Shown here: positions 9,701 through 61,864 of the stretch, piece by piece
Position numbering within the stretch: the first letter of the stretch is position 1
Layout of the letters: each line of letters opens with the position of its first letter
From: Sthenelais limicola
Lineage: Eukaryota; Annelida; Polychaeta; Phyllodocida; Sigalionidae
Direction: 5' to 3'
Assembly: GCA_942159475.1 (NCBI GenBank)
Contig: OW804096.1
Span: 103,514,194 to 103,578,193, forward strand
Length of the DNA stretch: 64,000 nt
Notes under the pieces: generated by a model
Told to the model about the DNA's origin: nothing
Database searches by the model: none
The model's input: the letters and a program-made list of their open reading frames with translations, nothing else
Position numbers and translations under genes: made by a program

Positions 9701-12700
9701 TGAAATATGATCAATAAGTAAGTTCCAATATTGATTGGAGTCCAGCTGATTCGTTAATTCTGACCAATTGTGCTCACGGAGCTTACTGGAGTAATATTCC
9801 TCACTATAAGTAGCATAAGATCTACAAGTAAATGTGGTCCTTCTGTATTGCTCTTGTTGTGCTGGCAATTGTATTGAGGATATAGGCCTGTAGTTTCCCG
9901 GGTCAGTGACAATTCCAGCCTTGAAAAGCGGAGTCACTTTGGACTGTTTCCATATCATTGGTATACTGGAACTTTCATATGTTAGGTTTATCAAATATTT
10001 GAATTTTGGTAGTAAGGCGATTAATGCTACTTTTAAAAGCCAAGCAGGCATATGATCAATGCCAGACGGCTTGCTCAAAGGAATGTTTTTTATTATTTTT
10101 CTAAGTTCAATATCATTTATTGGAGTATATTTGAACTTAGGGATATCTCTTTCCTCTATCGTTTCTAGATTGATTTTTCTTTGTTGTGATATAAAGTTTG
10201 ACATTGGAAGAGGTATGCTTTTGGCAAGGTTTGAGCCTATATTTGTGAAATATTCATTAAAATGATCAGGTATTTGGGCAGCTGGTATATCAGTGCCCAT
10301 TTCGTCTGATAGTGATATATGTAAATCCTTTTTGGCTTTTTTGTTATTTAGTAAGGGTGATATAATATTCCAAAATTTCTTTGGGTTCTGGGTATTGCTT
10401 TCTATCTGTTCACGTATATAATTGTTTTTTAGGTTTCTCGCCATGTGGTTTACTTTTGAGCAGAGTTTTTTTGCTTTATCCATTAAGGACGGATCGTTCG
10501 ATTTTTTAGCTCTCTTAAATAATTTGTCACGCTCCCTCATCTGGGAAAATAAATCACCATTTATCAAGGGTTTCCTGGTTTTAACATTGGTCATAGTGTT
10601 CAAGAGGCAGACTTCGTCTGTTACCTTTGAAATATGATCAATAAGTAAGTTCCAATATTGATTGGAGTCCAGCTGATTCGTTAATTCTGACCAATTGTGC
10701 TCACGGAGCTTACTGGAGTAATATTCCTCACTATAAGTAGCATAAGATCTACAAGTAAATGTGGTCCTTCTGTATTGCTCTTGTTGTGCTGGCAATTGTA
10801 TTGAGGATATAGGCCTGTAGTTTCCCGGGTCAGTGACAATTCCAGCCTTGAAAAGCGGAGTCACTTTGGACTGTTTCCATATCATTGGTATACTGGAACT
10901 TTCATATGTTAGGTTTATCAAATATTTGAATTTTGGTAGTAAGGCGATTAATGCTACTTTTAAAAGCCAAGCAGGCATATGATCAATGCCAGACGGCTTG
11001 CTCAAAGGAATGTTTTTCATTATTTTTCTAAGTTCAATATCATTTATTGGAGTATATTTGAACTTAGGGATATCTCTTTCCTCTATCGTTTCTAGATTGA
11101 TTTTTCTTTGTTGTGATATAAAGTTTGACATTGGAAGAGGTATGCTTTTGGCAAGGTTTGAGCCTATATTTGTGAAATATTCATTAAAATGATCAGGTAT
11201 TTGGGCAGCTGGTATATCAGTGCCCATTTCGTCTGATAGTGATATATGTAAATCCTTTTTGGCTTTTTTGTTATTTAGTAAGGGTGATATAATATTCCAA
11301 AATTTCTTTGGGTTCTGGGTATTGCTTTCTATCTGTTCACGTATATAATTGTTTTTTAGGTTTCTCGCCATGTGGTTTACTTTTGAGCAGAGTTTTTTTG
11401 CTTTATCCATTAAGGACGGATCGTTCGATTTTTTAGCTCTCTTAAATAATTTGTCACGCTCCCTCATCTGGGAAAATAAATCACCATTTATCAAGGGTTT
11501 CCTGGTTTTAACATTGGTCATAGTGTTCAAGAGGCAGACTTCGTCTGTTACCTTTGAAATATGATCAATAAGTAAGTTCCAATATTGATTGGAGTCCAGC
11601 TGATTCGTTAATTCTGACCAATTGTGCTCACGGAGCTTACTGGAGTAATATTCCTCACTATAAGTAGCATAAGATCTACAAGTAAATGTGGTCCTTCTGT
11701 ATTGCTCTTGTTGTGCTGGCAATTGTATTGAGGATATAGGCCTGTAGTTTCCCGGGTCAGTGACAATTCCAGCCTTGAAAAGCGGAGTCACTTTGGACTG
11801 TTTCCATATCATTGGTATACTGGAACTTTCATATGTTAGGTTTATCAAATATTTGAATTTTGGTAGTAAGGCGATTAATGCTACTTTTAAAAGCCAAGCA
11901 GGCATATGATCAATGCCAGACGGCTTGCTCAAAGGAATGTTTTTTATTATTTTTCTAAGTTCAATATCATTTATTGGAGTATATTTGAACTTAGGGATAT
12001 CTCTTTCCTCTATCGTTTCTAGATTGATTTTTCTTTGTTGTGATATAAAGTTTGACATTGGAAGAGGTATGCTTTTGGCAAGGTTTGAGCCTATATTTGT
12101 GAAATATTCATTAAAATGATCAGGTATTTGGGCAGCTGGTATATCAGTGCCCATTTCGTCTGATAGTGATATATGTAAATCCTTTTTGGCTTTTTTGTTA
12201 TTTAGTAAGGGTGATATAATATTCCAAAATTTCTTTGGGTTCTGGGTATTGCTTTCTATCTGTTCACGTATATAATTGTTTTTTAGGTTTCTCGCCATGT
12301 GGTTTACTTTTGAGCAGAGTTTTTTTGCTTTATCCATTAAGGACGGATCGTTCGATTTTTTAGCTCTCTTAAATAATTTGTCACGCTCCCTCATCTGGGA
12401 AAATAAATCACCATTTATCAAGGGTTTCCTGGTTTTAACATTGGTCATAGTGTTCAAGGGGCAGACTTTGTCTGTTACCTTTGAAATATGATCAATAAGT
12501 AAGTTCCAATATTGATTGGAGTCCAGCTGATTCGTTAATTCTGACCAATTGTGCTCACGGAGCTTACTGGAGTAATATTCCTCACTATAAGTAGCATAAG
12601 ATCTACAAGTAAATGTGGTCCTTCTGTATTGCTCTTGTTCTTTTTTCAACACAACATAAGTTGGTAGGTGATCACTTATATTTAAATTTGAAACACCTGA

Positions 12701-13561
12701 TGTTTTAACAATTTTTGAATTCGTATAGATCAGATCACATGTTGTTTCAGAGGACATGGTTATTCTTGTTGGAGAGGTTATGAGTTGTTTCATTGAAACA
12801 TTATGTTCAATCGATAGTAATTGGGTCTTACTCCGTGATGGTTTCTGATAATTAACATTAAAGTCTCCTACAAGGATTTTGTCTGAGTTTGAGGGTAAAT
12901 TTCCTACTATTTCTTGTATTGAGTGTCTAGCTTCGTTTAAATCTCCGTCCGGCGGGCGGTAGGAGTTGAAGACTACTACATCCTTGTAGGGGTTCAATTT
13001 TATTGTGAGCGATTGGATTTCAATATTTAAGTTACTGACATGGAAATTGTCACTGCCCGGTATAACCTCATATTTATCTAGTACATAAGTTGCCAGGCCT
13101 CCTCCTGTTTTCTTGGTTGTTTGCCTATCGTGTCTAAAAATATTATAGCCTTCAAGATGTATTAAATCATCATAGATATTGGCATTTAGCCATGTTTCAT
13201 TTATACCAATAACATCAAAGTGATATTTTTTACAAATCGCTTCTAATTCAGGTACTTTATTTAATAAGCTTCTGACGTTAAGACTTAATACTTTGAATCC
13301 CTTGGCTTTGGCAAGACAATCGTCGTTACCATTGTCAGGATGAGATTCTGCTACATTTTGAATTCTTAAGTTTCTTTTACGTCGCGCAGTCTTTGCTTGG
13401 GTCAGACATGGAGACCCTATCCAGGACAATTTGGATAATAATAGACTTATGAAGACTAATATATAAGTAATAATAACCCACAGGGTGAAGTATCCATCGT
13501 GGGTATTCAGGATACCAATAAACAACAATTCATGGGCACCAGAGACGTACCAAGGTAACAA
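6703..13561 (-). pseudogene. CR1-like ORF2 polyprotein (endonuclease + RT), internally amplified
   Basis: This is the replication protein of a CR1-like LINE: an APE endonuclease nicks target DNA and the RT copies the RNA there. In the 13561 frame, residues about 25-50 are strongly hydrophobic (LWVIITYILVFISLLL). The endonuclease follows, with LNVRSLLNK, INETWL, KTGGGLATYV, LVGDFNVNY, CDLIYTN and NISDHLPT, so all catalytic positions are present. A 309-residue block is then repeated five times (see 8007-12639), each copy ending in the RT fingers motif VTPLFKAG...NYRPISS. Next come AYLDLRKAFDTVNH (motif A) and CGVPQGTTLGP (motif B). An extra C in the run near 7626-7630 shifts the frame. The other frame continues through LLFNLYINDLP, MFADDTIVY (motif C) and TYKYLGIDID to the WNKLP block and a stop at 6703. 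The frameshift separates motif C from motif A, so this copy should be inactive. Confidence 0.9.
8007..12639 (-). repeat. Five tandem, in-frame copies of a 927-bp ORF2 segment
   Basis: Units begin at 8007, 8934, 9861, 10788 and 11715, an exact 927-bp (309-codon) spacing. Each encodes the endonuclease-RT linker and RT fingers. Copies differ by only a few bases. A C/T difference (tttttcatt against ttttttatt near 8235, 9162, 10089, 11016 and 11943) alternates copy by copy, giving I, M, I, M, I in protein order. The junction joins LPA to QQEQYRR with about 2 bp of filler. The first unit in protein order is slightly different (DKVCPLNT against DEVCLLNT). A LINE needs only one such segment. Either real tandem amplification or an assembly collapse/expansion error could explain it. 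Confidence 0.95.
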
Positions 13562-13720
13562 AATTCAAAATGGCAAATGAACAAGTGTAAAGTCGACCTA
13601 TATATCAATATGCAACATATCATGAACCTGTAATAATACAAAATTCAAGATGGCAGATATACAAGTGTAAAGTCGACCTTTATATCAATGTGCAACATAT
13701 CATGAACCTCCAATAATACA
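13561..13720. repeat. 80-bp tandem duplication between esterase frame and ORF2
   Basis: The sequence aaattcaaaatggcaaatg and what follows is repeated at 13641 with about ten differences. It includes the agtgtaaagtcgacct motif in both copies. It lies in the short spacer just upstream of the ORF2 start on the minus strand. Confidence 0.85.
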
Positions 13721-14426: not shown

Positions 14427-16089
14427 TTATATTAGTTCAATTTTTAGCTCACCTAGTATCTCGCCAAACACATTCTTTCCACGCTTGAAAGTTTCGGGGT
14501 TAAAAGCTAGGTCACCTAGTCGATGGCCGGTCCCCCACTTTCTGTCGAGCGTCATCTCTTAAAACTTGGTGAAAGTGGACTCTCGAAACTTCTCAAGCAA
14601 TGTAGGATTTTGCAGAAACTTTTCACGAACAATATCCTTTAGTAGGTTTCTCTCACCCTGTTCCCATGTGTCCGATATTTCAATGCTAGCCGCTTTGCTC
14701 TTTATATCGTAAGGGTTTTCCAGGTCTAAGATTTCTAGGCCTAGTTTCGCATTTTTGTCGGACATTATCAATTCAGATTTCATGTGTCTGTTCGGCAGAA
14801 GAATATTCTATCTCATTGAAATAGAATTTTGCTGGGTGAAAGTTCGATAAATAGACCAGTTCTCCTTGGAAGCCAAGCCCGTTTGTTTGCGGATAGATTT
14901 TTTGTTTCGTATCCTCGGGCCTGGCTCCTACTGGTAGAAGATGCAGGTCATCCACGTTGTATTGTGTACCTTCGAAAAGGAGGTGTGTCATACGCACGTG
15001 GGGCTTGTTGTTTTCATCTAGCTTCGTGAGCAGTTTTCCACATTTCCTGATCAAACTGCTTTGTCTCTGTATTTGATCTGGCACGTCTTTGTTTATCCAC
15101 AGACCTCGATTACCGCTCTGAGCTTTAATTTGAGCTGCAGATTTGATAATTTTGTCTTTAATTTTGAGTGTGGAAAGAGTGGTATGTACCGATCGTGTCT
15201 TATTTTGTTTATATTTACCCTGCCGATAGATCACTTGTATACTGTCTGAGTCAAACTCAGGGACTGAGGGGGAGATTAGCCTAGTTAGCTTATCGACCAG
15301 GTCTTCTTCTGTACTTTCGGGAATTCCCTCAAAGACTAGGTTTGATTTCCTAATATTTAATTCCATTAAGTCGATTCGCGAATTAGCTTGTTTCAGTTTA
15401 GTAACTAGTTTTGATTGTGAGAGCTCTGATTTTTCAAGTTGCGATTTGAGTGTATCACATTTTTGGTTTAGGGCTTGAGCATCAGGTTGTAGTATGTCAT
15501 TAGCTGCTCGGGTTGCAGCCAATTGTGTGTTATTGGCCAATATGCCGTCAATTTCACCAAGTTTTTGATTTACTTCATCTTTTACTGCGACAATTTCGGA
15601 GATGGAGGGCTCTACTTTGGCAGATATGAGTGCTGTTAGCTTGTCGTCAGATAATTTCGAGTCAAGTTCTTGGATTTTTGAGTTAATGGCGGTTTCAGCT
15701 TGGTTCAAAGAGTTAAGGGCTGGTTTTACTTTCTTATTGACCAAAATTACAATTTCTTTGTCAGATATTTTATTTTCAACCGCTTGTACCCTGGCGTTCA
15801 TTTTTTTCAGCTTGTCGTCATACTCTAATTTATGGGCTTCCAGACTAGCTGCAAAGGAATTTATGTCAGTTGAGATTTTAGAGGTCGATTGTTCATTTTG
15901 ATCAATCAATTTCTGAGATAAGGTTTCCATTGAGGTATTATTGTGCTTTTTTAGGTCCTCAACTAACTGGAGCATGAAAACTTGCATCTGGTCAGTACTT
16001 GTAATGTTAGATTCATCAATTGACGGTTTGATCGGGTCATTTTCATTTTTTCCAATTTGGGCCTGAGCCTGGTTAAGCCGGGAATCCAC
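14427..16089 (-). pseudogene. LINE ORF1: coiled coil, RRM-like core, C-terminal NADAR domain
   Basis: The 16089 frame has about 180 residues of heptad-rich helix (repeated K.QELDSKLSDDKLTALISA-type segments). An RRM-like core follows (RKSNLVFEGIPESTEEDLVD ... IQVIYRQGKYKQNKTRSVH), then an L1-type C-terminal domain (RGLWINKDVPDQIQRQSSLI ... VDDLHLLPVG). From about residue 405 it becomes a NADAR/YbiA domain, starting LSNFHPAKFYFNEIEYSSAE. A one-base frameshift at about 14783 continues it as MKSELIMSDKNAKLGLEILD, then DTWEQGERNLLKDIVREKF and LQNPTLLEKF. After a TAA at about 14559 the same frame runs on through DRKWGTGHRL and GKNVFGEILGEL to 14427. The Glu, the 'D..WG.G' and the 'KF.QNP.L' signatures are all visible. 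The listed start at 16089 is a GTG beside an inserted element; the real N-terminus is at 16900. Confidence 0.85.
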
Positions 16090-16726
16090 ACGGCGACTTC
16101 AGGGCCAAGTCGCCCATATTTTCCACCCAAGTCGCCCAAGTTTTCAGTCTCTCTCTGTCGCCCGTTGTGTCGCTCATGTTGGCTGCTGTGTGGATTCCCA
16201 AACTGAGAACGTCTTCTGGCGACATCACTAATTACCTCGGCGACTTGGACAGGCGACACAACATGAGCGACTAGATTAAACATTTTCATTCCAGTCGCTC
16301 AAATGGTGAGCGACACGGGGGTCATAAACGTGAAGTCGCCCGTCGGGAGGTCGCTCAAGTGGGTCTGAGATGGTACACAATGTGTGTGGATTCGGGTCAG
16401 TGTAACACCTTTGAGCGACTTGGCCTGTTTCAGCCAATCACAAGCCAGGAAAGCTGTGATGTCGCTCTACCTCCATGTAGCTGTACTTGTTAGAGCGACT
16501 TATTTAAGCTCTGAAAGTTGGGCGACTTTACAATGTAGCCACATATAAATCACTAGTGGATTCCCATTCAGACAGGCGACTTTCATGATGTCGCCCATCC
16601 TGAATCCTACCATAATGCGCCAAGTCGCCACACTTTAATGCATGTCGCTCAATTAAAAAGATATTAAATGATTTCTAGAATTGTGTAAAGTCGCTCACCA
16701 TTTTTAGGCGTCAATGGATTTAGGCC
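16080..16726. mobile_element. Small element dense in GTCGC/GCGAC motifs, inserted in LINE ORF1
   Basis: About 640 bp separate the two parts of ORF1. I count about 22 GTCGC or GCGAC cores, mostly as AAGTCGCC, GTCGCTCA or their complements, in both orientations. The ends share an AATCCA core (gggaatccacac at the left, tcaatggattt at the right). The flanks ttaagccgg and ttaagacgg could be a 9-bp target duplication with one change, or a TTAA site. Dense subterminal repeats of this kind are usual for transposase-binding regions of DNA transposons. No coding capacity is seen. The superfamily is not assigned. Confidence 0.65.
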
Positions 16727-33022: not shown

Positions 33023-34156
33023 ATGAGCACAAGAGTCACTAGGAAAAACATAACAGACGACATGACTCAGGAACAGTTCAAGGAGCTGATAGACTTGTTC
33101 ACAGCATTCAAGGATGATAGCAAGGGCGCAAATACTCAGGTAATGAAAAACATTCACATTTTTGGGACTAAATTGGACCAAGAATTATAGAAAGAGCCAT
33201 CCACTGTAAACAATATGACTACGGTCACGAAATATGCTAACTCTATATCACCAGAATCGTTTTGTGGTAGAAAGGGACAAGATCCCGAAGATTGGCTCAG
33301 AGTGTATGAAAAATATATGAAGATTCAAGAACCTGGTAATAATGACGCCATGAAAGATTCTTTATTACTGTATTTGGGTGGTGACGCTCACTCATGGTAC
33401 ATAGACCATGCTATTGACGACAAAACATGGCCAGACATTAAGAAATCTTTTCTAAAGTATTTTTCGGATATCACAGAAGAAAAGAAGTCACTTTTATTAT
33501 TCACTAAAATGGATGATGATGAATCCATCCAAAACTTTTGTAGACAGGCTTCAAAAGCCTATAGAATTTTGGATCTCACAGATCAGGAGAAATGTGTACG
33601 TTTTCAAGCTGGAGTAATACCAGATATTAGAAGTGAAATGATGAAAACTAATCCAGACACTTTTGAGAAAATGCTAGTAGCAGCTATTGATACAAAGGAC
33701 ACTTTGTCACTTAAAAACAGGCGTACCAACCAAAATTCCAGTGAGATTGATGTGTTGAAAACAATGGTGCGAGAATTGGCTGTTAAAGTCAGTCCTCAGG
33801 TGAACAGTATTTCGGCTAGTGAAAGTAAGATGCAAATTGAAATAGAAGCTATGAAAAGGGAACTCCAAGCTTTAAAAGGACCCGTGGTAAACCATATCTC
33901 ACATCAACCTAGTGTTGAGTCACAATTGGAACAATTACGACAGCAAGTAGGTCAGCAATATTCAGTGAAACAACCTGAGATTAGTGTGCAAAATAATCTC
34001 ATGATGCAGGAAATCGAAAAGCTAAAACAACAAATGTCTATCAATGCTACTAGTCTTGCCACACCAGTCAGTGTTAATCAAAATAATGCTGAGATTATTT
34101 GTTATACATGCGGCAGGAAGAATCATTATTCAAGGGATTGTGCTTTGAACCCATGA
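33023..34156 (+). pseudogene. Gypsy gag
   Basis: An ATG at 33023 opens a frame with a TAG at about 33188; downstream of it the frame is open for 313 residues. It has the retrotransposon Gag capsid pattern: PEDWLRVYEKYMKI, LLYLGGDAHSWYIDH, TWPDIKKSFLKYF, then MDDDESIQNFCRQASKAYRI. A long helical stretch (residues about 175-275 of the open part) contains several glutamine-rich coils. The end is CYTCGRKNHYSRDC, an exact C-x2-C-x4-H-x4-C knuckle for RNA binding. Beyond the stop at 34156, 34157-34260 reads as an RG- and NQ-rich tail (RGRGRGQGRGNHNGGYYQQN), so that stop also looks secondary. It would form the particle shell. The TAG is one clear inactivating change. Confidence 0.88.
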
Positions 34157-43475: not shown

Positions 43476-44204
43476 AAGAGCCTCAGTTTGCCATTCTCCC
43501 TGATGGTAAAGGGGTAATATCCTTGAAGATCGCATTGCCTCCCCGACTAGAGGGTTTTCCACCCATTCTGGACCCCTGTCAGAATCTACCTGTTGACAGT
43601 GAAGGGCATAGGATTCATAGTTTCTGCGACAAGATTTCTACCTTTTTATCTATGCAGAAAGGGGCTTGGTTCCGTTTATGGACAAGAGTCCAGGCCCAGG
43701 AGAGAGATTTTTGGAGTTTTCTGAATCATCCAGTAAAGATTAACAAAACGAGATCCTAGAGGAGTGCATCTTTGGCACAGCCACAGTTAAAGATGTTATC
43801 CGGCTGGCCAATAATATGAATATTATCAATAACAATGTGAAGGCTATTGTTGGAAATTCCAAATCTTTTAGGAACATGACCACTGTGGCACTCAGTCGTA
43901 CTTCAGCTATAATGAAAACTTTATATAGGAAAACTTTATACACGGCTGAGGATAACATGATTCAGACCAGACAAGCCTTGAAGAAACTGGCAGGTCATGT
44001 TATCGCTTTGTCACATGGTTGGCACAGAGGGCAAGTGTGGAACTCTTATTTTACCCTTTCTATTGCTCATATCGACTATCAAGTTGAACTTTTGAATGCT
44101 TATGCTATGGACATATCGGATTGGCTTGAAGCCATCGAGGATCTACACCAAGGCAAGATAAGTGTTCATCTGGTGTCCCCTCATCAATTGCATCGAGTAT
44201 TAAT

Positions 44205-45525
44205 TACAGTTTAAGAAAGAGAGAACGCCTGTGAGCCTAGCTCCGAAATTTTTCCTTCTTTTTCAGGGACCCGAGGATCGTCAGAGAATTCTTTTCTCAC
44301 ACAAGTTGCAGTAAATACTCAGGACACTGTATACACAAAAGAGGCAATTTAAAATCGAAAAGAGAATAATTTGTGGACATTTTAGTTTTCTTCCCGCCCT
44401 CCGGGAAGGAACAGTCAAAGGATTGTCAGATTATCGCTCAGCCAAGGCTACCAAGTGTGGATTACAAACGATCAATGAAACTGCAGTGAAGGACTTTCTT
44501 GCTTATAGAATATGTGAAGATATTGTGGAAATCATACATGTGCCTGATTCATAGCTAAAGGATTATTTGTAGAACTGCACTAATAACCCAACCACGCCAC
44601 GCTAGACTAACTGAGTAAGGCAGTGAGGAAACAGTGGTGCCATCTCGTGAATAAAAGAGACAGTGCTATGGAGAAGAAAGTGAAGTTCCTGGAACTGAAG
44701 CCCAATCGATTGGCCCTTGCCAAAACTATGATAGAGGAATCCATGGCCAACTATGAGAAACTATTCAAGTCCATCCAACAGTTGGAGGAAATGAAAGAAA
44801 ACAAACAGGTGGTGGAAACTATGGAATACGAACAGGTGGAAGAAATTATAAATAATGAACAGACAGATGAGGAGATTATGGAAAACACTGAAACCAGTGC
44901 TAAGAATATTTCGGAGATAGCAAATGACAAAGTACAGCAAGTCTCAGACACAGACAGGCCCAAGAAACTGCAACGACTGGCAGGAGTATAAGATGGAGAG
45001 ACATTCAGAAATGAATTCCAAATTAGGCTCATTAGGCTGGAAAAGAACATTCTCTCGCTGGGTATCCAGAAGAGGGGCAGTGAATCGTTAGGGATTGGTT
45101 GATCTTCTAAAGACATAACTCACACACATTTGAAGAAAGTGTAATGGATATGTGGAGACAAAAATACCAGTGTTTATAGTTCTGCTAGTAGGTGAAACAA
45201 GAGAATTAATACTTAAGTAAAAGATTAAAAGAGAGAGAGAAAAAAGAAGTTAGTCCATCATTAAATGATGAGTTAGATCCAATTGTGGGATGTATGCCTG
45301 TAAACCAGCTGAATAGATGGGTGTGACTGTGACTTTTATGATACCAAAATGAATGAAAAACTTGTGAACATAAGACTTGTACATTAGCATTGTATGGAAA
45401 AGTTTTTAAAAGGATATTACTGTGTGGTTACCTAGAGTTTCTTTTAACTACAATGATTTAGCAATGTATATGCCCAGATGGCAGGTGTTCTTGAATAAAG
45501 GTGGTTTTAAAAAAAAAAAAAAAAA
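44205..45525 (+). mobile_element. Probable retrocopy with AATAAA and 17-A tail, inserted in env
   Basis: The env frame stops near 44214 and resumes after an A17 run at 45509-45525, preceded by AATAAA at 45494-45499. This is the 3' signature of a reverse-transcribed, polyadenylated RNA. TAATTA near 44199 and 45526 could be a decayed target duplication. Inside, 44623-44991 encodes a 122-residue, highly charged, coiled-coil-like protein (KPNRLALAKTMIEESMANYE; then Glu-rich) that I do not recognise. It could be part of a retroelement gag or a host transcript. The left boundary is uncertain. Confidence 0.55.
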
Positions 45526-48255: not shown

Positions 48256-49499
48256 TATAGGCATGTATGCTTAGTGCCATGTACGGTCCCGGTGCCACTG
48301 TGACGTCAGCAGTGAAACTGAACCCTTTTGACTGATAGAGGGCAGGGTATGTCCCAATGGCGCCGACCTAGACATCTATATCTCGATAGTTTTTATTCAT
48401 TTAAAAGTCAAATATGACCACTTTTGATGAAATGATTGCTAGGAATAATTAACTATGAATGGTACAGTTCATATGAGGCGTTACTGGACTGACTTCTGTG
48501 TTCCTTTAATGTACCAACCGCCTTGGAAGAATGTGTATTTGTTGTGTATAGACCAGTAACTACCCCTGTTCCTCTAGACATCCATCGCAGTAAGGGCTAT
48601 ACTATTGTGCAGGAATTACCCTATGCTCTATTTATTGGGAAGTCAGGAAATACATTTGTAGAATTTACATCCAAAGATTTCTCCTATTGCCATGAGGGAC
48701 ACTATTTTGAATGTAATACCATACCACCAAGGAAGGAAACGACCAACTGGTCTTGTCTGTGGGCAATCTATCAAGACAAGGATATCAGTGCTCATTGTAG
48801 TTTTATCTTCTCGGCAAAGGACGACTTTCCCTCGAGCATAGTGTCTTTATACCAATCAACAGTATTAATTTCTTCAACACAAGGGTTTTTTACATTGGAG
48901 TATTTGGGAAATAATACGAATATCAATATAACATGTACTTTCTGCTCTTTTGACATACCTTGCCAGGGAAAGATTAGGGTTTTTGCAGTGGCAGATTTGC
49001 ACTGTGGAGAAGAGAAATCCGAAGTCTTTGTACTAAATCATATTAATTTGCCCCTGGTTAAGGCATTTAATCTTTCTCTTCCATACCTCTCAGCAGACCC
49101 AAGCCATAACAACAATAGCTTTGAGCTAGAGTTGCCAGATCTCTCCATTGTGGAAAATGGAGGTATTTTTGAGGGGGATAGAGGATTTTGAAAAACCAGC
49201 ACATGGGGATAGTTCCAGTTTTTGAGGACCCAACTATGGTTTCAGTAAATACCTTTTGGGGATCGAAGGCTGGACTGCTCTTGATGACTATTGTGGCAGC
49301 AATACCTGGGATCTATGCTATTTTGAAAGCAAGGCGGCTAGCCATAACCGTAGCTATGCTACAACTAAAGCTTGCTAATGCCAGATCAATTGACTCCCGC
49401 CAGGTCATCAAGATACCCTTGCTGCCGATTGCCTCAATTTCACCACTTGTCGAGGAGCAGGATATGTTTTCTGCCTTTATTTCGATGATTAAATACCAA

Positions 49500-52278: not shown

Positions 52279-52777
52279 AACAACAACTTTAAAGAGGTTC
52301 CGGTTCCGGTTCTGAAACGCTGAGAAGCAAGAGCAAAGGCTTGTCCCTTTTTTTTCAGACGCAGATCTCCACACTAAGTGTATCATATCAGATTTTGGCA
52401 TGAACACTCATTAAGGTATATAGCATACCTGGTATCCATTGATTGACAAACTTGAACAACCTAAAGTTCGGAATAACTGTTGTACGAACCGACTCAAGGA
52501 GACCACGGGAGGCGGTGGGATTACATCGGGTAGTGAAAGACTTGTTCATCAGATTTAATTATTATTGCTAGATGCCCCTCGCATCTCCCATAGCTCACGC
52601 TCCTCAAAGACTATTTTGATCGTCTGCACACTAGGATACTTTGTAAAAGGACGTTTCCAAAGGGTTTCCCCCAAATAACAAACTCTGACTCTAGCGTGCA
52701 GGAAATTCTCCCAACCGACCTCAATCCCTTGCGCCTTGACCAGTGCGAGTGATGGACTGGTTGTTTACGACGTGATC

Positions 52778-53251
52778 TAGCCCCTAGGTAACCCAGGAAA
52801 TGTAACTAAACCCATCTTTCTAAAGGATTCTGTGAAAAAGGTTCGTCTGTATTGAGATTTTACTGTCTCCACCTGAATATCTCAAGCTCTTAATCTTGTA
52901 AACTCTTCTCTTTCGAGCGGCAAAACTCTCGGGAAAACTTACAGTTTGCGCATGCGCACATGAACTTTGCCGCAAGCTGACTCTTACCAATGACAGTGTA
53001 AATATGTTATGAAATAGCCCCTAGGAAGCACAGGAACTAGTATAAAGACTGTTGATGTAAAGGAATCTGTGCAAAAGGTTTGTTTGCACATCGATTTCAC
53101 CTGGTTTCACTCCTACGACCTGAACATTGATCTTGTTTATGTTCATGCATCGAACGGCAAACCCTTCTCGGAAGTCCAAAGTTTGCGCATGCGCACTCAA
53201 ACAGAGCAGCGTGCCGACACATAACGGTCGGTCTACCTCACTGAAAGAGAC
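52778..53251 (+). promoter_or_regulatory. Two 237-bp 5'-UTR monomers with NRF1-like palindromes
   Basis: tagcccctagg starts at 52778 and again at 53015; the palindrome tgcgcatgcgca lies at 52947 and at 53184, the same 237-bp offset. The sequence between is diverged but alignable (aaaggattctgtgaaaaagg and taaaggaatctgtgcaaaag). TGCGCATGCGCA is the known NRF1 binding consensus. Tandem 5'-UTR promoter monomers are known in some LINEs, so this is probably the internal promoter. Confidence 0.7.
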
Positions 53252-53636
53252 TGAAGTGTTGTTTATCACTGCATACACCCCTGCCATTCTTTCGAACTAA
53301 GCACCCTTATTGAAGTATAAACAACTCCTTGATAGGCCTTGTGCCCCCAAACTTTTTTACTTCATATATTGTGCTCCGCGGCCTAGGCCACCACATGTGT
53401 TGAGAACCAAGCACTGACAGCCATTGTGGAAAAAGCAAAATTTAGCAAAGCTGCAAAAGCACGGGCGTTGCAACAGGTAATCGCAACGGCAGCCAGTAAC
53501 ATACAAATAACCACTCCCTCAGAAGTAAACAATCTATCCCCTGGGACCCTCCGGTAACCCGCAGAAGTAAACAAACAAGTAATCCAGACACCCCCCCACA
53601 CTGGTCTACCCACGTGGTAAGCGCTAGCAACCTGCA

Positions 53637-55008
53637 ATGGCTAGTGATAGAAAGAGGACTAGAGCATCGGGAAGTGAAGGAGGAGATACGACTGAAGGAA
53701 TTGAAGAGTTAAAAGACCATGTGGCCGGAGTGGCCACCCAATGCACAAACCTGGCCCAGCAGTTGGCGGACGCAGTGGGTCCTGTCGCCACTCTCGCTGG
53801 CGCTAACAAAAAAGAAATAGATGTAATTCATGGTGATAATAAAAAGAGGGACATTGAGTCAGGGAAGCATAGAAAGAAAACCCTGGCAATAGAAAAGAAC
53901 CTCAAAAGATTGGACGAGACCACCGTCAAATGGAATGACCCAAGCTTTTGTGCCTTAGCACCAAGCAAAAGCGGAAGAAGAAATTAGACTCAAGAACCTT
54001 CTTCAGGAAAGGTCTCTAAACCTTATTATTGAGGGTATAAGCAAACTGGAAGATGAAGATGAGACCAAAGAACAAATATACTCCTCAAGATTGATAACAT
54101 GTTCCAAGGACCGTTGGGGATACACGGTATCCAGCTGAAAGTTTTCTTCAGAATGGGAAAAGGAATAAACCCCCCTGTCCTAGTACAGTTCACAAATAAG
54201 GATGACATGACAAGAGTGTGGAAGCAAAAACCCCAACTAAACAAACAAGTTGTACCAGAGGGAGAGAGCCCAATATGGATCAAGAGGGACCTGCCCGACG
54301 CACTACAGGCGAGAGTAAACCGGGCACGCCCCATTGCTAGAGCCGCCAGGGCCACCGGCAGGTACACAAAAGTCTTCAATGTAAATGGAGACATCATTCT
54401 GGACACCAAGAAATATACCCACGACAGGCTAGAGCTACTCCCCGCAGATTTGGCCCAATCCATGGTCTCAAGAAAAACTAACCAAGACACATTTGGTTTC
54501 TACAGCATCCTGAACCCCCTCTCGAATTTTTACCTGACAGAATTTGATATAGGGGGCAAACATTTCTTGTGCATGGAGCAGTACCTTGCATATAGAAAGT
54601 CCATCCTGGAAATCCACCCCGCGACATCCGCCAGAATCTTAACCCTTGAAGATCCCTATGAGTGCAAAAAAATGTTGGCAGAAATTAATGACCCCAAAGT
54701 GGGAGAAAAGGCTTGAAGAGATCCTTGAACAGGGACTTGCAGCTAAAATAAGATGTAACTCCATGGTCAAAGAGTATCTGTTAGGCACAGAACAGAAAAT
54801 GATTGGGGAAGCTGCACCCTTCGACACCAAGTGGGGCATTGGAATGGCCCTGAAACATGATGACATGCTTGTTGTTGAAAAATGGCCCGCAGAAGGAAAT
54901 AGGCTTGGGAAAGCCTGGATGAACCTGAGAGGAAAAATTCAGGCTGCTGAGCAACAAAAGAAAGATCAAGAGAAAGAGGAGCTTGAAAAAGATCATGAGA
55001 AATGCTAG
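53637..55008 (+). pseudogene. LINE copy B ORF1: RRM-like core and C-terminal NADAR domain
   Basis: Starts MASDRKRTRASGSEGGDTTE. A helical region (GVATQCTNLAQQLADAVGPV) follows, then frameshifts near 53975 and 54090. The RRM-like part is RSLNLIIEGISKLEDEDETK and VQFTNKDDMTRVWKQK, then the L1-type C-terminal domain SPIWIKRDLPDALQARVNRA and THDRLELLPADL. A NADAR domain runs from about 54505: GFYSILNPLSNFYLTEFDIG, FLCMEQYLAYRKSI (conserved Glu), and after a frameshift near 54705 KWEKRLEEILEQGLAAKIRC and AAPFDTKWGIGMAL (D..WG.G). It ends with GNRLGKAWMNLRGKIQAAE and a Lys/Glu tail. RRM-type ORF1 proteins bind element RNA; NADAR enzymes cleave N-glycosidic or ADP-ribosyl bonds. Three frameshifts make the copy inactive. 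Confidence 0.87.
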
Positions 55009-55046
55009 CAGTAGGTTATTAACTTTGCAGCGCACCAACAGTCGTT

Positions 55047-56191
55047 ATGGAGAATGACGATCTCTCTTTAATTTCTTTCATGTCTTTAAACATCAACAGC
55101 ATTAATAATATTGAGAGAAGAAAAGCCACCTTCGCGTACCTCAAGTCATTCAAGAACTCTATAGTGGCAATTCAAGAGACACATAGTACGCCAAGTACGG
55201 CTGCCATATGGGCAGCCCAATGGGAAGGTCCCATACATCTCGTGCATGGACAGTCCAACTCCAGAGGCGGCGCGATTTTATTCTCTAAGGACATCAATGT
55301 TAATATAGTGCAAAAAGGTGGTGACACAGAGGGCAGAATAGCCTTCATTGATTTCGCAATTGGTGGTGTTCAAATTTGTTTATTCTCTGTTTATTTGCCA
55401 AACATCCATGGATGCATATAAGCATCAGGCCGACGTTTGTAAAATATTGAATAATATGATATCCGAAAAAAATGAAAAAACATAGTCATAATGAGCTTGC
55501 ATGTAATGTCGGTATAAAAGATATGTTGAATATTGTTCAGGTATATGAATTATGTGATGTTGTCAATGAATTATCCAATGTAAAAAACAAGAAACTCAGG
55601 AAAGGTGGGACTGTGAACTGTCAGATCATGATTTGGTTTTGGTAAAACTAAGACTGGGAGAACCCAGTAGGGGCCCCGGGTTCTGGAAGTTCAACAGACT
55701 TTTGTTGGAGGATGAGAAATAGATTTCATTGACGAAAAGATCAAACAGGTTATCCTAAGTAACACAAGCCTGAGCGCCTGAGCGGAGTTTATTAATTAAG
55801 TTCACTATCAAAACTGAATCCATTACCTTTTCAAAAAAGAGGGCTTGGGAGAGAAAAAAAATTGAAAGGAAACTCAGACTTAGACTGAAAGAAATAGGTG
55901 CTGTTCTACCGTTAACTAAAGATGTATACCTAGAAAGGGAAAATATCTTAGATGAATTAAAAACAGAAAGCCTGTTAAGAGCCCAAGGTGCCCTCGCAAG
56001 GAGCAGAGCGAAATGGCTGGCTGAAGGCGAGAAGCCAACTAAGTAACTTGGAGAAGAGAAATTTTAAGAAGAAAATGATTGCTCAATTACTGGTAGATGG
56101 CAACATTGTCAGCTCCCAAAAAGAAATCCTAGAGATAGAAAAATTGTTTTATGAATCCCTGTATCATGAAGTTAGCTTGCCACGAGAGTAA
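55047..56191 (+). pseudogene. LINE copy B ORF2: endonuclease and linker, internally deleted
   Basis: The ATG at 55047 lies 38 bp after ORF1. MSLNINSINNIERRKATFAY, AIQETHSTPST (catalytic Glu), HGQSNSRGGAILFSK and RIAFIDFAIGGVQICLFSVY fit an APE endonuclease. After 55421 the frame breaks. The GDFN segment and the 'RLDY' block seen in copy A are missing, and reading resumes with CELSDHDLVLVKLRLGEPSR and the linker GPGFWKFNRLLLED. Then come KKRAWERKKIERKLRLRLKE and ARSRAKWLAEGEKPTK. The deletion removes part of the active site. Confidence 0.82.
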
Positions 56192-56197
56192 CAATGC

Positions 56198-58650
56198 TTG
56201 GCTGAGACTACTGACCCCTTGGGTCGTTGTTCTGAGACTGAGAGCATGCTTCTGGGAAGGGAAATTATAGGGGAAGAGATATGGGAGGTCACGAAGGGAC
56301 TTGGGGGCCACAAAGCCCCTGGTTGTGACAGCCTACCCATAGAGTTCTACAGAGCCTTGTGGAGCACCCTTAGTCCTGTATTTTTATCGATGTTACATGA
56401 CTGTTTCAAAAGCAACAGCCTCACTCCTGAAATGTACAGGGGCATCATCTCAGTTATTCCAAAAAAAGACTGCGATCTAAAATTGATTGGAAACTGGCGT
56501 CCCATTACTCTGTTGAAGACAGACAATAAAATTTTATCAAAAATCCTTACAGAAAGATTGAAAATATGTATTGGAAAATGTATTAATGATGACCAGGTTG
56601 GTTTTCTGCAGGGCCGATACATTGGTACTGCCAATAGACGAGTCGAAGACACAGTTCAATATTTACAAAATGAGGGGAAGAAGGGACTTATTGTCTCGCT
56701 GGATTTCCGTAAAGCCTATGACTCATGGAGTTTCCTACTAAAATGTTTAGAGGAAATAGGCGTAGGACAGGTTTTAATACATTGGATTAGAATTATGTTA
56801 CACGGTTCCAACTCCTGTGTCATAAACAACGGTTTCTCTTCTAATTGGTTTAGCATCAATCGTGGGGTAAAGCAAGGTGACCCGATCTCATCTTACCTGT
56901 TCATTATCGTTGTTGAAAAACTTGCTCAAGCTATCAGAAGCTCAAACGATTGTAAAGGGATTTTCATCGGTGCCACTGAAAACAAAGTAATCCAATTTGC
57001 GGATGATCTCACAGTCATCGCTGATAACGAAAATTCCCTGATAAGTATGATTAATATAATTGAAGATTTCAGTAAAGCATCGGGCCTCATGCTTAATATA
57101 GAGAAAACGAGAGGCTTTGATATCAGGAATATCCCACTATGTACTCAAACAGCCAAGGAGATTTGATGGGTCAACTGCATGAAAGTGTTGGGAATTTCGA
57201 TTGTCTACCCTTCTAACACAAGTACCCAAGAATTTTGATGATATTAGAGAAAAAGTTAAAAATTGCATTGCCCATTGGTCGAAGAGAGACATATCTCTCA
57301 AAGGTAGGGTTGTCGTAGCTAACGTCTTAATTCTGCCTCTGTTCATGTATGCCGCTGCCAATATCTGTACAGAAGACCGCATCATGGTAGAGTTTCAGAA
57401 ACTGATCGAAGATTTCTTATGGAGGAATAAAAAACATGAAGTGGCGAGAAAGTATATGTGTAAGAGTGCAGAGGAGGGCGGTCTTAACCTGCATGACGTT
57501 CGATCAAAGGTAGCGCCATTAAAAAATTGATGTGGATCAAGAGGCTTATCTTGGATAAAGGGTCCACATGGTCTGCTTTCTTTGAGGCAGCCGGTGGACA
57601 GGACATCCAAGCAGCCTTCAAGGCCAGGTCGGTTATGAGTTCAACAGGTTCAGATTTTTATGATGAAGTATTAAGGCTATGGTCAAGATTCTATGTAGCT
57701 AACGAACCTGAATCCAAAAAAGAAATACTGTGCGAAAAAATCTGGAACAATAGAGTTCTAAAATTGGAAAACAAAAACACTAACTGGGAGGTGTGGAAGA
57801 GGAAAGGTTTATGCTGCGTTGATGATCTAATTTCAAAATCAAAAGTATCAATGAGTTCAAAGCCGAGAACGATTTAAAAATCACTTTTGTGGAAAGATTT
57901 CTCATGAGAGACTCTATTCCCAGAAATTGGTGGGCCACGATAAAAAATGATACTGTCTTTGATTACAGACAGGAGCTAGTATGTAGGTTTAGAGGTAAGG
58001 CGGTGAATATTCTCGTCTCAACCACAAGTGAATTATACAACGTAATCAGAGGCGCTATATTGTACAGCGAAGATAGAAAAGTAAAATGGGTCTCAATGTT
58101 TCGGAACAAAGCTATTGACATCACTCAGGTTGACGCCAAAGTCTGGTACTGAATCCCATACACATGCACAAAGAACGTAAGGTTGCAGTCGTTTCAATTC
58201 CTGGTGGTTAACAGGCTAATAGTGTGTAATAAATATTTGAAAAACATCCATGTCAAGTTGTTCCCAGATTGCAACTATTGCAACAAATGTGACGACATAT
58301 TCGGTTTCTTCATAGACTGCAAAAAAGTTAATGAGTTTTGGCAAACGCTGGTAAAATGGGCTGGTATCAACAAGGCTTTTAATAGAGACCTAGTGGACGA
58401 TCTCAACGCTGCACATATTTTACTGGGAATCCCTTGCCAGGAACCCAGAAGCAGAAGGCTCAATTTCATTCTCATTAAGGCTAAGTTCTTTATTCATAAA
58501 AAAAGGTTGTTCTACAATAACGAAATTTGCTTCTTTGAGTTCCTCAGAGTGATCAAGTCAGCCCCTAGGGCTCTTAAGGATAGCGCCATCTACGGCCAGT
58601 CCCATGTAAATGAGTTTAAGTTGTGGAAGAGTTTTTATTCAAACTTGTAA
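56198..58650 (+). pseudogene. LINE copy B ORF2: reverse transcriptase and C-terminal region
   Basis: A 322-residue frame has GGHKAPGCDSLPIEFYRALW, IGNWRPITLLKTDNKILSKI, DDQVGFLQGRYIG, LIVSLDFRKAYDSWSFL (motif A), NRGVKQGDPISSYLFIIVVE (motif B) and VIQFADDLTVIADN (motif C), so the RT palm is complete. A stop near 57166 is followed by frames at 57201-57530, 57527-57877, 57889-58152 and 58183-58650. These give ISLKGRVVVANVLILPLFMY (thumb) and a Cys-rich end (CNYCNKCDDIFGFFIDCKKV) in the place of the CCHC motif. The protein end at 58650 is about 200 bp before the element end. Confidence 0.88.
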
Positions 58651-58869
58651 AGTCTTCTCTCCCTCTGTATTGTCAACGGTCACAATCACGGCCTGGTATA
58701 TACTGAATGAAGATGTATACTGATGTGTAGTTTAAATAGCCTAGTCCAAATTTTTTCTTTTCTTTTTGGAGCGTTGTAATCTGAAATTGTATACCGCTCT
58801 CAACTTGAAATCCTGTCTGCTTACTGAATAAACACCCGGTGTTGGGGGGAAAAAAACAACAACTTTAAA

Positions 58870-59783: not shown

Positions 59784-60566
59784 TCATCCGAATTCTGAAT
59801 CCTTCACATTCATTCCATGCGGTTGGTATGTTTGTAATCTATGTATCCAGTTGTGTTCTATTAGGGTTCTGAGTTCCTTTGCCCTTTTGCTTTCTGGATG
59901 TTTGTATATAAAGTCTATTATTTGTATTTTGAAGTCTTCTAGACCTGAGTGGTCGTGTTTGTTGAAGTGCTTCGCTACCACTGATTTCAGCCTGTTGTGT
60001 TTTATATCCACCATGTGTTCGTTCGCTCTTTTCCATAGGGTGCGTTTCGTTTGCCCTGTGTATAGGTCTTCGCATTTTTTGCATGAGATGCAGTATATCA
60101 GGTTTGAGCTGCTGCAGTTAACGTTTGTTTTTACGTCGGTTTTGCGTCGGTTCGCGTTTTTTATGGGGTTGCTTTTGTTTAGTTTTGGGCATACCTTGCA
60201 TTTCTTATGTTCGCATTTGTTTTTTGTTCCCTCTTTCTTTTCTGTGCTCTTCTCGGGATGGTAGTCCAGTTTTGCCCGGATTAGGTGTTCTCTGAGGTTT
60301 TTTGGTCTCTTGTATCCGCATACAAGTTTCTTTGTTTGTAGGCTTTGGGTTTGTTTTGATTTTCCTAATATGGGCCAGTACTTTCTGAGTATGGTCTGTG
60401 TTTTATTGTATGTTGGTCTGAACATACTGATGTGGAAGATATTATTGTTCTCTTTCTCCTCTTTTTGTTCCTTTCCTTCTTCTCTGTCTTTCATGGCTTT
60501 GTTCAGAGCTGTTTGTATGAGGTTTTCTGGGTATCCTCTTCGTTTAAAGTGTTTCTCTTTCTCCCA
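59784..60566 (-). pseudogene. Penelope-like GIY-YIG endonuclease region
   Basis: The frame starts KHFKRRGYPENLIQTALNKA, then SMFRPTYNKTQTILRKYWPI, NLREHLIRAKLDY, and a Cys cluster CEHKKCKVCPKL. The GIY-YIG domain is LIYCISCKKCEDLYTGQTKR then TLWKRANEHMVDIKHNRLKS, with the IY and YTG signatures and the conserved Arg, and VVAKHFNKHDHSG. In these elements the domain nicks DNA for target-primed reverse transcription. The portion is open and looks well conserved. Upstream in the same frame, to 60770, the residues come from inserted repeats and are not part of the protein. Confidence 0.88.
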
Positions 60567-60654
60567 GGTTGCGCGGATGCACTTAGGATGCGCAGCCCTT
60601 GCATGGCCATGGACTACATCCGGACTCAGGGAAAAGTGCAGCCAGTGTAAGCCA

Positions 60655-60772
60655 GCCTTGCACATCCGGCTGCACTTTGGCTGCACTTTGGCTTGGCTGC
60701 ACTTTGGTTGCACTTTGGTTGCACATTCAGCTGCACTTTGGTTGCGCAAGGGTTGCACATCTGGCTGCACAT
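60655..60772. repeat. Short tandem repeats (GCTGCACTTTGG / TTGCACxx)
   Basis: About eight imperfect units of TGCACTTTGG and TTGCAC follow one another near the left end of the 2.05-kb insertion. This may be a transposase-binding array. Confidence 0.8.
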
Positions 60773-61864
60773 TTTCGTGTGCCTAGGGCAGGTAGGGTAT
60801 TGTGGGTGGGGCTCAGATTACTTGGGATCAACTTAAATATTTGCTAATTTTTATTATGAAAATGTGTTAGTATAAGTTTACTGCTCTACCTTTCCCATGA
60901 AGTATTGTTCAGTCAGAGTAGCAAACTGAAAGCAACTTTAGATTGAACATCTACAGCCCAGATACCTTTTAAAGGTACAACAGCATAGGTTGCATCCATT
61001 TATTCATCATTTATCATAAGCACTGGCCCTGCATCTTTACAGACCTCTGTGTATGAATCATTTCGATGGTTGATGAGTTCAGTCACTCCCAGCTGACTAG
61101 GCACAGTCATATGTACAGTTATATAGGTGGTTTGATCAGGTCGATTCCCAACATCATACATATACATTATACATATAAACTGTAGAAGAATATCACTTAT
61201 GATATTCATAAGTATTTGTTGGACAATATCAATAGTGCATAAATGCCACATTAGTGTATTAGCGGTACTTGTTATTGTTAAAGAAATTATAAATGCAATG
61301 CAGTGACCTGTCACACCCCTAGTGAGAAACAAGTACCGCCACCTGATGAGAAGAAGTTGCACAATAGAAAGCCTATGACGAGAAGTACCATGTTTTGAGA
61401 AGGATATTTGAAGGATATTCTCAGATTATTGCAAAAATATGTAATATGTGATCCGTTTTTTTTATTTAAAGAAGGGGAGGTCAAGCCGATTCCAATGATG
61501 AATGTAAACATACTAGTGAGAACAAATTAATTTCAATATGTGCCATCAATGTGGACCTATTTGTCCCTACAAGTGGTCATGATTGCGGCGATCACGCGCC
61601 ATCGTTGATGACGCACTCAACATTAAGGCTATACAGGTATAGGTTGCATAGCCACATTCGCCTTAACCTAAGCTTCATTTTGATAATAAACACTTCACAT
61701 TTATACAAACCTGAAGGGAGGAGTTAGTACTTTAATTCAGCCAGTTTTAGTATAGGCCTAACGGCAGATTATTTTGGCTTAATATACAAACTATTTTAGA
61801 ACCTAGTTTTTAAAAGTTATGGTGTACATGTCATTATCCAGACACTGCTATTTCATTCATTAAT

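Follow-up and report, generated by a model that had tools for sequence, protein, structure and literature searches.

Enzymes of the NADAR family are known to take ADP-ribose off guanine (PMC11543638, PMC11125620). In bacterial toxin-antitoxin systems DNA is known to be ADP-ribosylated reversibly; what NADARs do in eukaryotes is described as unclear (PMC11125620). The closest described precedent for a NADAR carried by a long interspersed nuclear element (LINE) is an account within a paper on Ectocarpus transposons (Genome Biol 2025; PMC12477816), in which several proteins encoded by the first open reading frame (ORF1) of Crassostrea gigas Tx1 LINEs appear to contain a YbiA-family NADAR. Human ORF1p forms a trimer that packages LINE RNA (PMC5940361), and type II ORF1s are stated for L1, CR1, L2 and R1 (PMC4120745). 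The latter source (Metcalfe and Casane, 2014) also describes reticulate ORF1s in CR1/L2 and proposes that modules such as esterase or PHD, and whole ORF1s, passed from one LINE clade to another; the term NADAR is absent from its main text (0 occurrences). Here we describe an L1/Tx1-type LINE whose ORF1 ends in a NADAR domain, found in a 64,000-nucleotide stretch of the genome of the annelid Sthenelais limicola (assembly GCA_942159475.1, contig OW804096.1, positions 103,514,194 to 103,578,193 of the forward strand), which we call the window. Our analysis indicates that this ORF1 is a LINE-1-type ORF1p, with a modeled coiled coil, RNA recognition motif (RRM) and C-terminal domain (CTD), extended by a C-terminal NADAR. 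The window copy is decayed, and the same genome holds many NADAR-ORF1 relatives with open frames; in these LINE NADARs the hydrolysis centre appears from alignment to be kept and the grip on ADP-ribose altered.

An earlier note on this DNA, made from the letters alone, had proposed the domain from four motifs, all of which are present in the plus-strand translation: NPLSNFYLTEF and MEQYLAYRKS in frame 54099-54716, and PFDTKWGIGM and GNRLGKAW in frame 54646-55008. Profile search assigns the region to NADAR (Pfam PF08719) and to no other fold. Residues 140-194 of the first frame match with E 0.0039 (17.9 bits) and residues 4-98 of the second with E 9e-15 (55.7 bits), the second piece lying above and the first alone below the curated Pfam cut-off of 35.1 bits; five relatives with open frames (L043-L047) score 76.9-89.3 bits. 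With the frame break read through as X, the domain matches the NADAR of Phytophthora nicotianae (8bau, E 3.9e-8) and Escherichia coli YbiA (E 0.017), and the model of a homologue has the YbiA fold. These profile and structure matches confirm that 54516-54939 encodes a NADAR domain of the YbiA family. A six-frame scan with the NADAR profile found two such domains in the window; the second, at about 14430-14807 on the minus strand, is the weaker match, and all remaining rows had E values of at least 0.75.

The element that carries the domain is bounded by an exact 15-bp repeat, so the limits of 52.3-58.9 kb given in the note were right. No 15-mer common to both flanks arose by chance in 2000 base shuffles (0/2000). 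Joined across the 6,561-bp insertion, the flanks read '...IFADDIVLISQHKS...', and an older LINE reverse-transcriptase (RT) relic there was the insertion target. The second open reading frame (ORF2) gives Pfam matches to Exo_endo_phos (E 3.8e-7), RVT_1 (E 3.4e-36) and, under the cut-off for that family, zf-RVT (E 0.0065). The best match of the window RT in the PDB is human LINE-1 ORF2p (E 4.7e-47), R2 following with E 4.6e-20, and ORF2 of the relative L044, a 949-aa frame, matches human ORF2p across residues 8-888 (E 5.7e-90). These matches bear out the NADAR as part of an L1-type LINE. The label Tx1 is the earlier note's; the L1-type placement here comes from RT and endonuclease matches to LINE-1 ORF2p, without a named Tx1 reference, and in the RT tree described below the join of the Tx1-type rows with human L1 has support of only 83/76. 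Both reading frames of the window copy are broken, and we regard it as dead.

ORF1 of the window copy changes frame at about 53930-53990, at 54085 and at 54690, breaks that are absent from the earlier note; in L043-L047 the ORF1 frames are intact, at 475-487 aa. No Pfam match to an RRM was found in the window ORF1 pieces. The RRM and L1-type CTD that the note had named are nevertheless borne out through a homologue, P0123, whose structure model matches human LINE-1 ORF1p over model residues 341-545, ahead of the NADAR. By this model the ORF1 is of type II, with the order coiled coil, RRM, CTD. The features are collected in Table 1.

Table 1. Features of the NADAR-bearing LINE and of the comparison element, in window coordinates
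Feature	Position	Strand	Basis
L1/Tx1-type LINE insertion, 6,561 bp	52294..58854	+	bounded by 15-bp target-site duplication
Target-site duplication, left copy AACAACAACTTTAAA	52279..52293	.	exact 15-bp repeat
Target-site duplication, right copy	58855..58869	.	exact 15-bp repeat
ORF1, broken: N-terminal region, RRM, CTD, NADAR	53637..55008	+	frames read; open-frame relatives L043-L047
RRM and L1-type CTD (approximate limits, frame change inside)	54004..54465	+	alignment to homologue P0123
NADAR domain; pieces 54516-54680 and 54655-54939, frame change between	54516..54939	+	Pfam PF08719, 8bau match
Glu, equivalent to E43 of P. nicotianae NADAR and E88 of E. coli C7	54576..54578	+	alignment; role PMC11543638
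Lys, equivalent to K50 of P. nicotianae NADAR and K95 of E. coli C7	54597..54599	+	alignment; role PMC11543638
Glu, equivalent to E125, YbiA-family Glu (last strand)	54808..54810	+	alignment; role PMC11543638
Asp, equivalent to D130	54823..54825	+	alignment; role PMC11543638
Trp, equivalent to W133	54832..54834	+	alignment; role PMC11543638
ORF2, broken: endonuclease from 55047, RT 56192-57166, weak zf-RVT within 58153-58650	55047..58650	+	Pfam
Comparison element: ORF1 of second NADAR LINE (frame 14773-16098; NADAR in other frames to about 14430)	14430..16098	-	frames, NADAR profile scan, 8bau E 0.00062

In the P. nicotianae NADAR, structure and mutants assign to E43, K50 and E125 a role in hydrolysis or at the distal ribose, and to D130 and W133 contacts with the ligand (PMC11543638). 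All five residues are present in the window copy and in L043-L045, so that the catalytic glutamates, whose absence the note had named as grounds for giving the idea up, are in place. E43, K75, W89, E125 and W133 show no variation across 29 LINE rows. At the K50 position 15 of these rows have Lys, 12 have Arg, one has Gln and one, the broken copy of the second LINE in the window, has Ser. A divergent Tx1-type NADAR ORF1 with Gln at this position (L014:63-1064, minus strand) shares its locus with a CR-type NADAR LINE, a group introduced below.

Relatives were sought in the same genome, which comprises 161 contigs and 1,130,627,326 bases. For the query 54063-54716, a piece of ORF1, the best 150 of 3,639 candidates were scored: all 150 match, 146 extend into the NADAR and 143 are stop-free within the match. 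The search behind the CR-type loci scored the best 150 of 5,561 candidates, and no copy total is derived from either search. Eleven other copies have 85-86% identity and open frames, ten of 477-487 aa and one of 347 aa; further families lie at 56-65% and 36-44% identity to the ORF1 piece, with a few partial matches between. Over 3.4 kb, L036 shares 99.4% identity with L035 and 99.1% with L037, both of which lie on other chromosomes, against 91-96% for the rest of the copies compared. The window copy is outside this near-identical group, with a synonymous divergence (dS) of about 1.2-1.3 from L043. An RT search, in which the best 123 of 11,859 candidates were scored, gave an upstream same-strand ORF1 match within 6 kb at 97 of the 123 places (90 + 7), and 96 of these 97 matches reach the NADAR (89/90 in the first set). 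L120, which represents the family with the smallest RT identity (53%), was inspected directly, and its 538-aa frame is open and includes a NADAR (Pfam E 5.8e-19); the count of NADAR content thus covers 98 of the 123 scored Tx1-type RT places. Outside the genome, the Tx1-type ORF1, read through, was run against proteins and none of the 7998 candidates scored passed, and a profile search with both ORF1 types found four proteins, P0121-P0124, among 7994 scored. No relatives turned up in viral contigs when the queries were P0123, the L044 ORF1, the ORF1 piece and the RT of the window copy; with A3, an alignment, as query, four NADAR loci were recovered there, L001-L004.

The minus-strand NADAR of the window belongs to a second LINE, which spans 14430-16098 and 6703-13564. 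Its 1,987-aa ORF2 frame contains a stretch ahead of the RT that is repeated several times in tandem. An esterase had been guessed after its NADAR; the 101-residue piece there has no Pfam match, and the guess is unconfirmed. Twenty loci picked from the upper part of the candidate list (L013-L032) represent this different LINE group, for which we use the working label CR-type, the RT tree having been built without a CR1 reference. In that tree of 23 rows (L013, L014, L022, L026, L032 and L045 gave no usable RT piece), 15 of the twenty loci and the second LINE of the window form one 16-row clade (support 100/99); five Tx1-type rows (100/100), human L1 and R2 fall outside it. The two LINEs thus belong to different clades, in agreement with the note.

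The note had further called the NADAR of the Tx1-type element independent, a claim for which we find no support. The CR-type and Tx1-type ORF1 profiles are collinear from the coiled coil to the end of the NADAR (373 columns, hhalign E 9.1e-50), and the distance from a conserved Leu in the CTD to the Ser-Asn of the NADAR is 31 residues in 29/29 frames (19 CR-type and 10 Tx1-type). Five of the ten Tx1-type frames (L043-L047) adjoin an L1-type RT, the second frame of L014 and P0121-P0124 being typed by ORF1 similarity only. The count leaves out the CR-type frame of L014 (broken upstream), the second frame of L029 (no CTD), the near-copies L033-L042 and the window copies; counted by hand, the spacing is 31 in the window Tx1-type copy, 31 in L120 and 33 in the second LINE of the window. 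Within each clade the NADAR groups mirror the RT groups (L016/L031; L015/L019/L021/L024; L017/L018/L020/L027/L029/L030; L046/L047; L043 with the window copy), which implies that, for the sampled rows, the NADAR travelled with the RT.

These data lead us to think that the CTD-NADAR unit probably has a single origin and came to be in both LINE clades through inheritance or ORF1 exchange, since an equal junction favours one fusion. The strength of that argument is limited because the comparison set holds no NADAR-free type II ORF1 that would show where a CTD naturally ends. The domain might instead have been gained twice from different donors, the junction being set in both cases by where the L1-type CTD naturally ends; we consider this a serious possibility, though one that we would not favour. 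The NADAR phylogeny that the earlier note had called for gives it partial backing, in that the grouping favours separate gains. In a tree of 85 rows the Tx1-type NADARs fall in a 25-row set (100/93) that also holds a solo NADAR of the same genome, oomycete NADARs, eight viral rows, a Cupriavidus plasmid row and P0090, and the CR-type rows group with the unusual row PR_L029b in a set of 15 (96/90); all 40 of these rows join in one group (100/99), to the exclusion of the other 45, which are bacterial and viral. The Tx1-type NADARs themselves form one clade (98/94 in a 49-row tree, 100/95 in the 85-row tree), and in the approximately unbiased (AU) test on the 49-row set a Tx1 plus CR clade without PR_L029b is rejected (p 0.018). 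The NADAR of an Ectocarpus Gypsy lineage, moreover, was judged a separate acquisition by its authors (PMC12477816). However, the joint clade is no longer rejected once PR_L029b is included (p 0.112), and in the larger set the test does not reject a single clade of all LINE NADARs, either as such (p 0.379) or with the solo NADAR added (p 0.409). The trees rest on few columns (147-161) and have long branches, and the 85-row tree, from which 13 near-identical viral rows and CR_L013, CR_L014, CR_L025, CR_L028, win_CR1 and ref_P0012 were dropped, contains one viral contig twice (L001, L069). With AU values from 0.018 to 0.41 the tree does not decide the matter; the common spacing and the collinear profiles speak against two gains and for a single fusion.

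Two kinds of NADAR outside the CTD-NADAR unit were also seen in this genome. L048 and L049 (G000:C1:94855254 and C1:89380390) are near-identical solo NADAR frames of 162 aa (L048, Pfam E 3.2e-31), and a third place, C1:66983187, has a frame of the same length; the solo NADAR is a multicopy gene or part of another element. At L029:8319-9701 (plus strand) the domain occurs in a third context, a proline-rich frame without RRM-CTD in which a 'LIIGDSN' stretch follows the NADAR; here His replaces E125, as described for phage NADARs.

Whether the NADAR is under constraint was assessed in eleven ORF1 pairs, of which three, all CR-type, have a finite NADAR dS. In these three the ratio of nonsynonymous to synonymous divergence (dN/dS) in the NADAR is 0.029 (L017-L029), 0.040 (L015-L019) and 0.046 (L027-L030), and in the region after it 0.221, 0.297 and 0.294; with dS of 1.1-1.6 these ratios are rough. 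For the latter two pairs ORF2 gives 0.059 and 0.065, both above the NADAR values. In the four Tx1-type pairs dS is saturated, and dN in the NADAR (0.092-0.289) is similar to that of the preceding 105 residues (0.105-0.325); for L043-L044 the NADAR dN of 0.23 is below that of ORF2 (0.356).

What might the domain do? In the mechanism that we propose, the ORF1 protein of the open-frame relatives would form a trimer on LINE RNA, by analogy with human ORF1p, and the NADAR active site would thereby be carried on the particle, beside the LINE RNA and cDNA. There it would most likely hydrolyse the N-glycosidic bond of ADP-ribose, or of a related ribosyl adduct, on guanine in LINE RNA, cDNA or target DNA, and so undo marks of host or foreign ADP-ribosyltransferases that would otherwise block reverse transcription. 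We give about an even chance to this proposal taken whole, namely that a NADAR-tailed LINE-1-type ORF1, arising from a single fusion, clears such adducts from LINE nucleic acid or target DNA. Several observations weigh against it. R79, which contacts the pyrophosphate in the P. nicotianae NADAR, is found in 0/29 LINE rows; it is kept in 15/15 reference rows (hand-picked from P0001-P0120), 14/16 bacterial rows and 17/42 viral rows (one viral contig, L001 and L069, being counted twice), and in 118 of a set of 120 proteins, with a gap in the other two. R93, a ligand contact, is Arg or Lys in 18/18 cellular or viral rows versus 2/10 Tx1-type and 12/18 CR-type rows, D130 is lost in 5/10 Tx1-type rows, and Y84 and D86 are not kept in LINE rows, though these two also vary among cellular and viral rows. 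With R79 absent and R93 and D130 altered, ADP-ribose may not be the ligand, and the adduct may differ from ordinary ADP-ribose. Moreover, the NADAR of L021-L024 is less conserved than the CTD (dN 0.424 versus 0.338), and the selection ratios are rough for the reasons of dS given above. Loss of R79 was also considered as a mark of LINE NADARs alone, and dropped because 25/42 viral rows are without it too.

The same changes in the pocket could point to a non-catalytic module for binding or structure, such as a reader by which the LINE particle is held to ADP-ribosylated chromatin or to other partners modified in this way. The loss of R79 fits this, as does the K50 position in the ten Tx1-type rows, where Gln stands in one and Arg in two, but both catalytic Glu positions are kept in 29/29 LINE rows and the NADAR ratios lie below those of ORF2 in two CR-type pairs, and we consider such a module unlikely. 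Alternatively, the substrates could be other N-glycosides, such as soluble ADP-ribose signals, damaged nucleotides or YbiA-like small molecules, so that the enzyme would blunt a host signal or clean nucleotides. E. coli YbiA has been described as a cleaver of riboflavin intermediates and viral NADARs have been proposed to prefer soluble ADP-ribose derivatives (PMC11543638, PMC9503650), and the altered ligand contacts of the LINE rows would suit a different substrate; fusion to a protein of RNA-binding type argues instead for a nucleic-acid-bound one, and to us this alternative seems somewhat doubtful rather than far-fetched.

A more specific version of our proposal, which we put forward tentatively, is that a single ORF1 cassette with an altered-pocket NADAR was exchanged between two deep LINE clades, or was anciently common to them, and serves as an anti-restriction enzyme acting on adducts of LINE RNA or cDNA. 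If this were true, the host lineage would have in nucleic-acid ADP-ribosylation a retrotransposon defence that has gone unrecognised. A LINE whose need for the active site depended on the presence of an ADP-ribosyltransferase would mark nucleic-acid ADP-ribosylation as a transposon restriction pathway. A self-replicating element that keeps a NADAR site in many copies offers a concrete, testable setting for a eukaryotic NADAR role. Within the literature collection searched, we found no paper linking LINE-1, retrotransposition and RNA ADP-ribosylation.

Some other frames in the window can be mentioned. A zinc knuckle and a weaker Ty3 capsid-like match at 33191-34156 (plus strand; Pfam 2.7e-5 and 4e-5) indicate an element of long terminal repeat type, and frames at 43744-44214 and 48493-49191 (both plus strand) have no clear Pfam match. 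A weak GIY-YIG match, just under the cut-off (E 0.00027), lies at 59784-60782 on the minus strand; GIY-YIG occurs in Penelope-like elements.

Overall, a NADAR in the ORF1 of Tx1 LINEs is already published, and a second LINE clade, a collinear junction, selection and a changed pocket were not found among the literature matches listed, which include no further paper on NADAR, YbiA or DUF1768 in transposable elements. The C. gigas elements are alike in being Tx1 LINEs with a YbiA-family NADAR in ORF1; that account gives a match in Repbase and offers RNA processing as a guess, and the passages concerned mention no second LINE clade, common junction, selection, active-site changes or copy number (PMC12477816). 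The Ectocarpus Gypsy lineage, in the same source, is alike in being a retrotransposon that carries a NADAR. Human LINE-1 ORF1p resembles the window ORF1 in its coiled coil, RRM and CTD fold, as predicted through the P0123 model. The human protein is not known to carry a NADAR. Finally, 8bau and YbiA share with the LINE domain the fold, as seen in the homologue model, and E43, K50, E125, D130 and W133 of the window copy, but they are free-standing proteins that keep R79, whereas the LINE rows have lost it.
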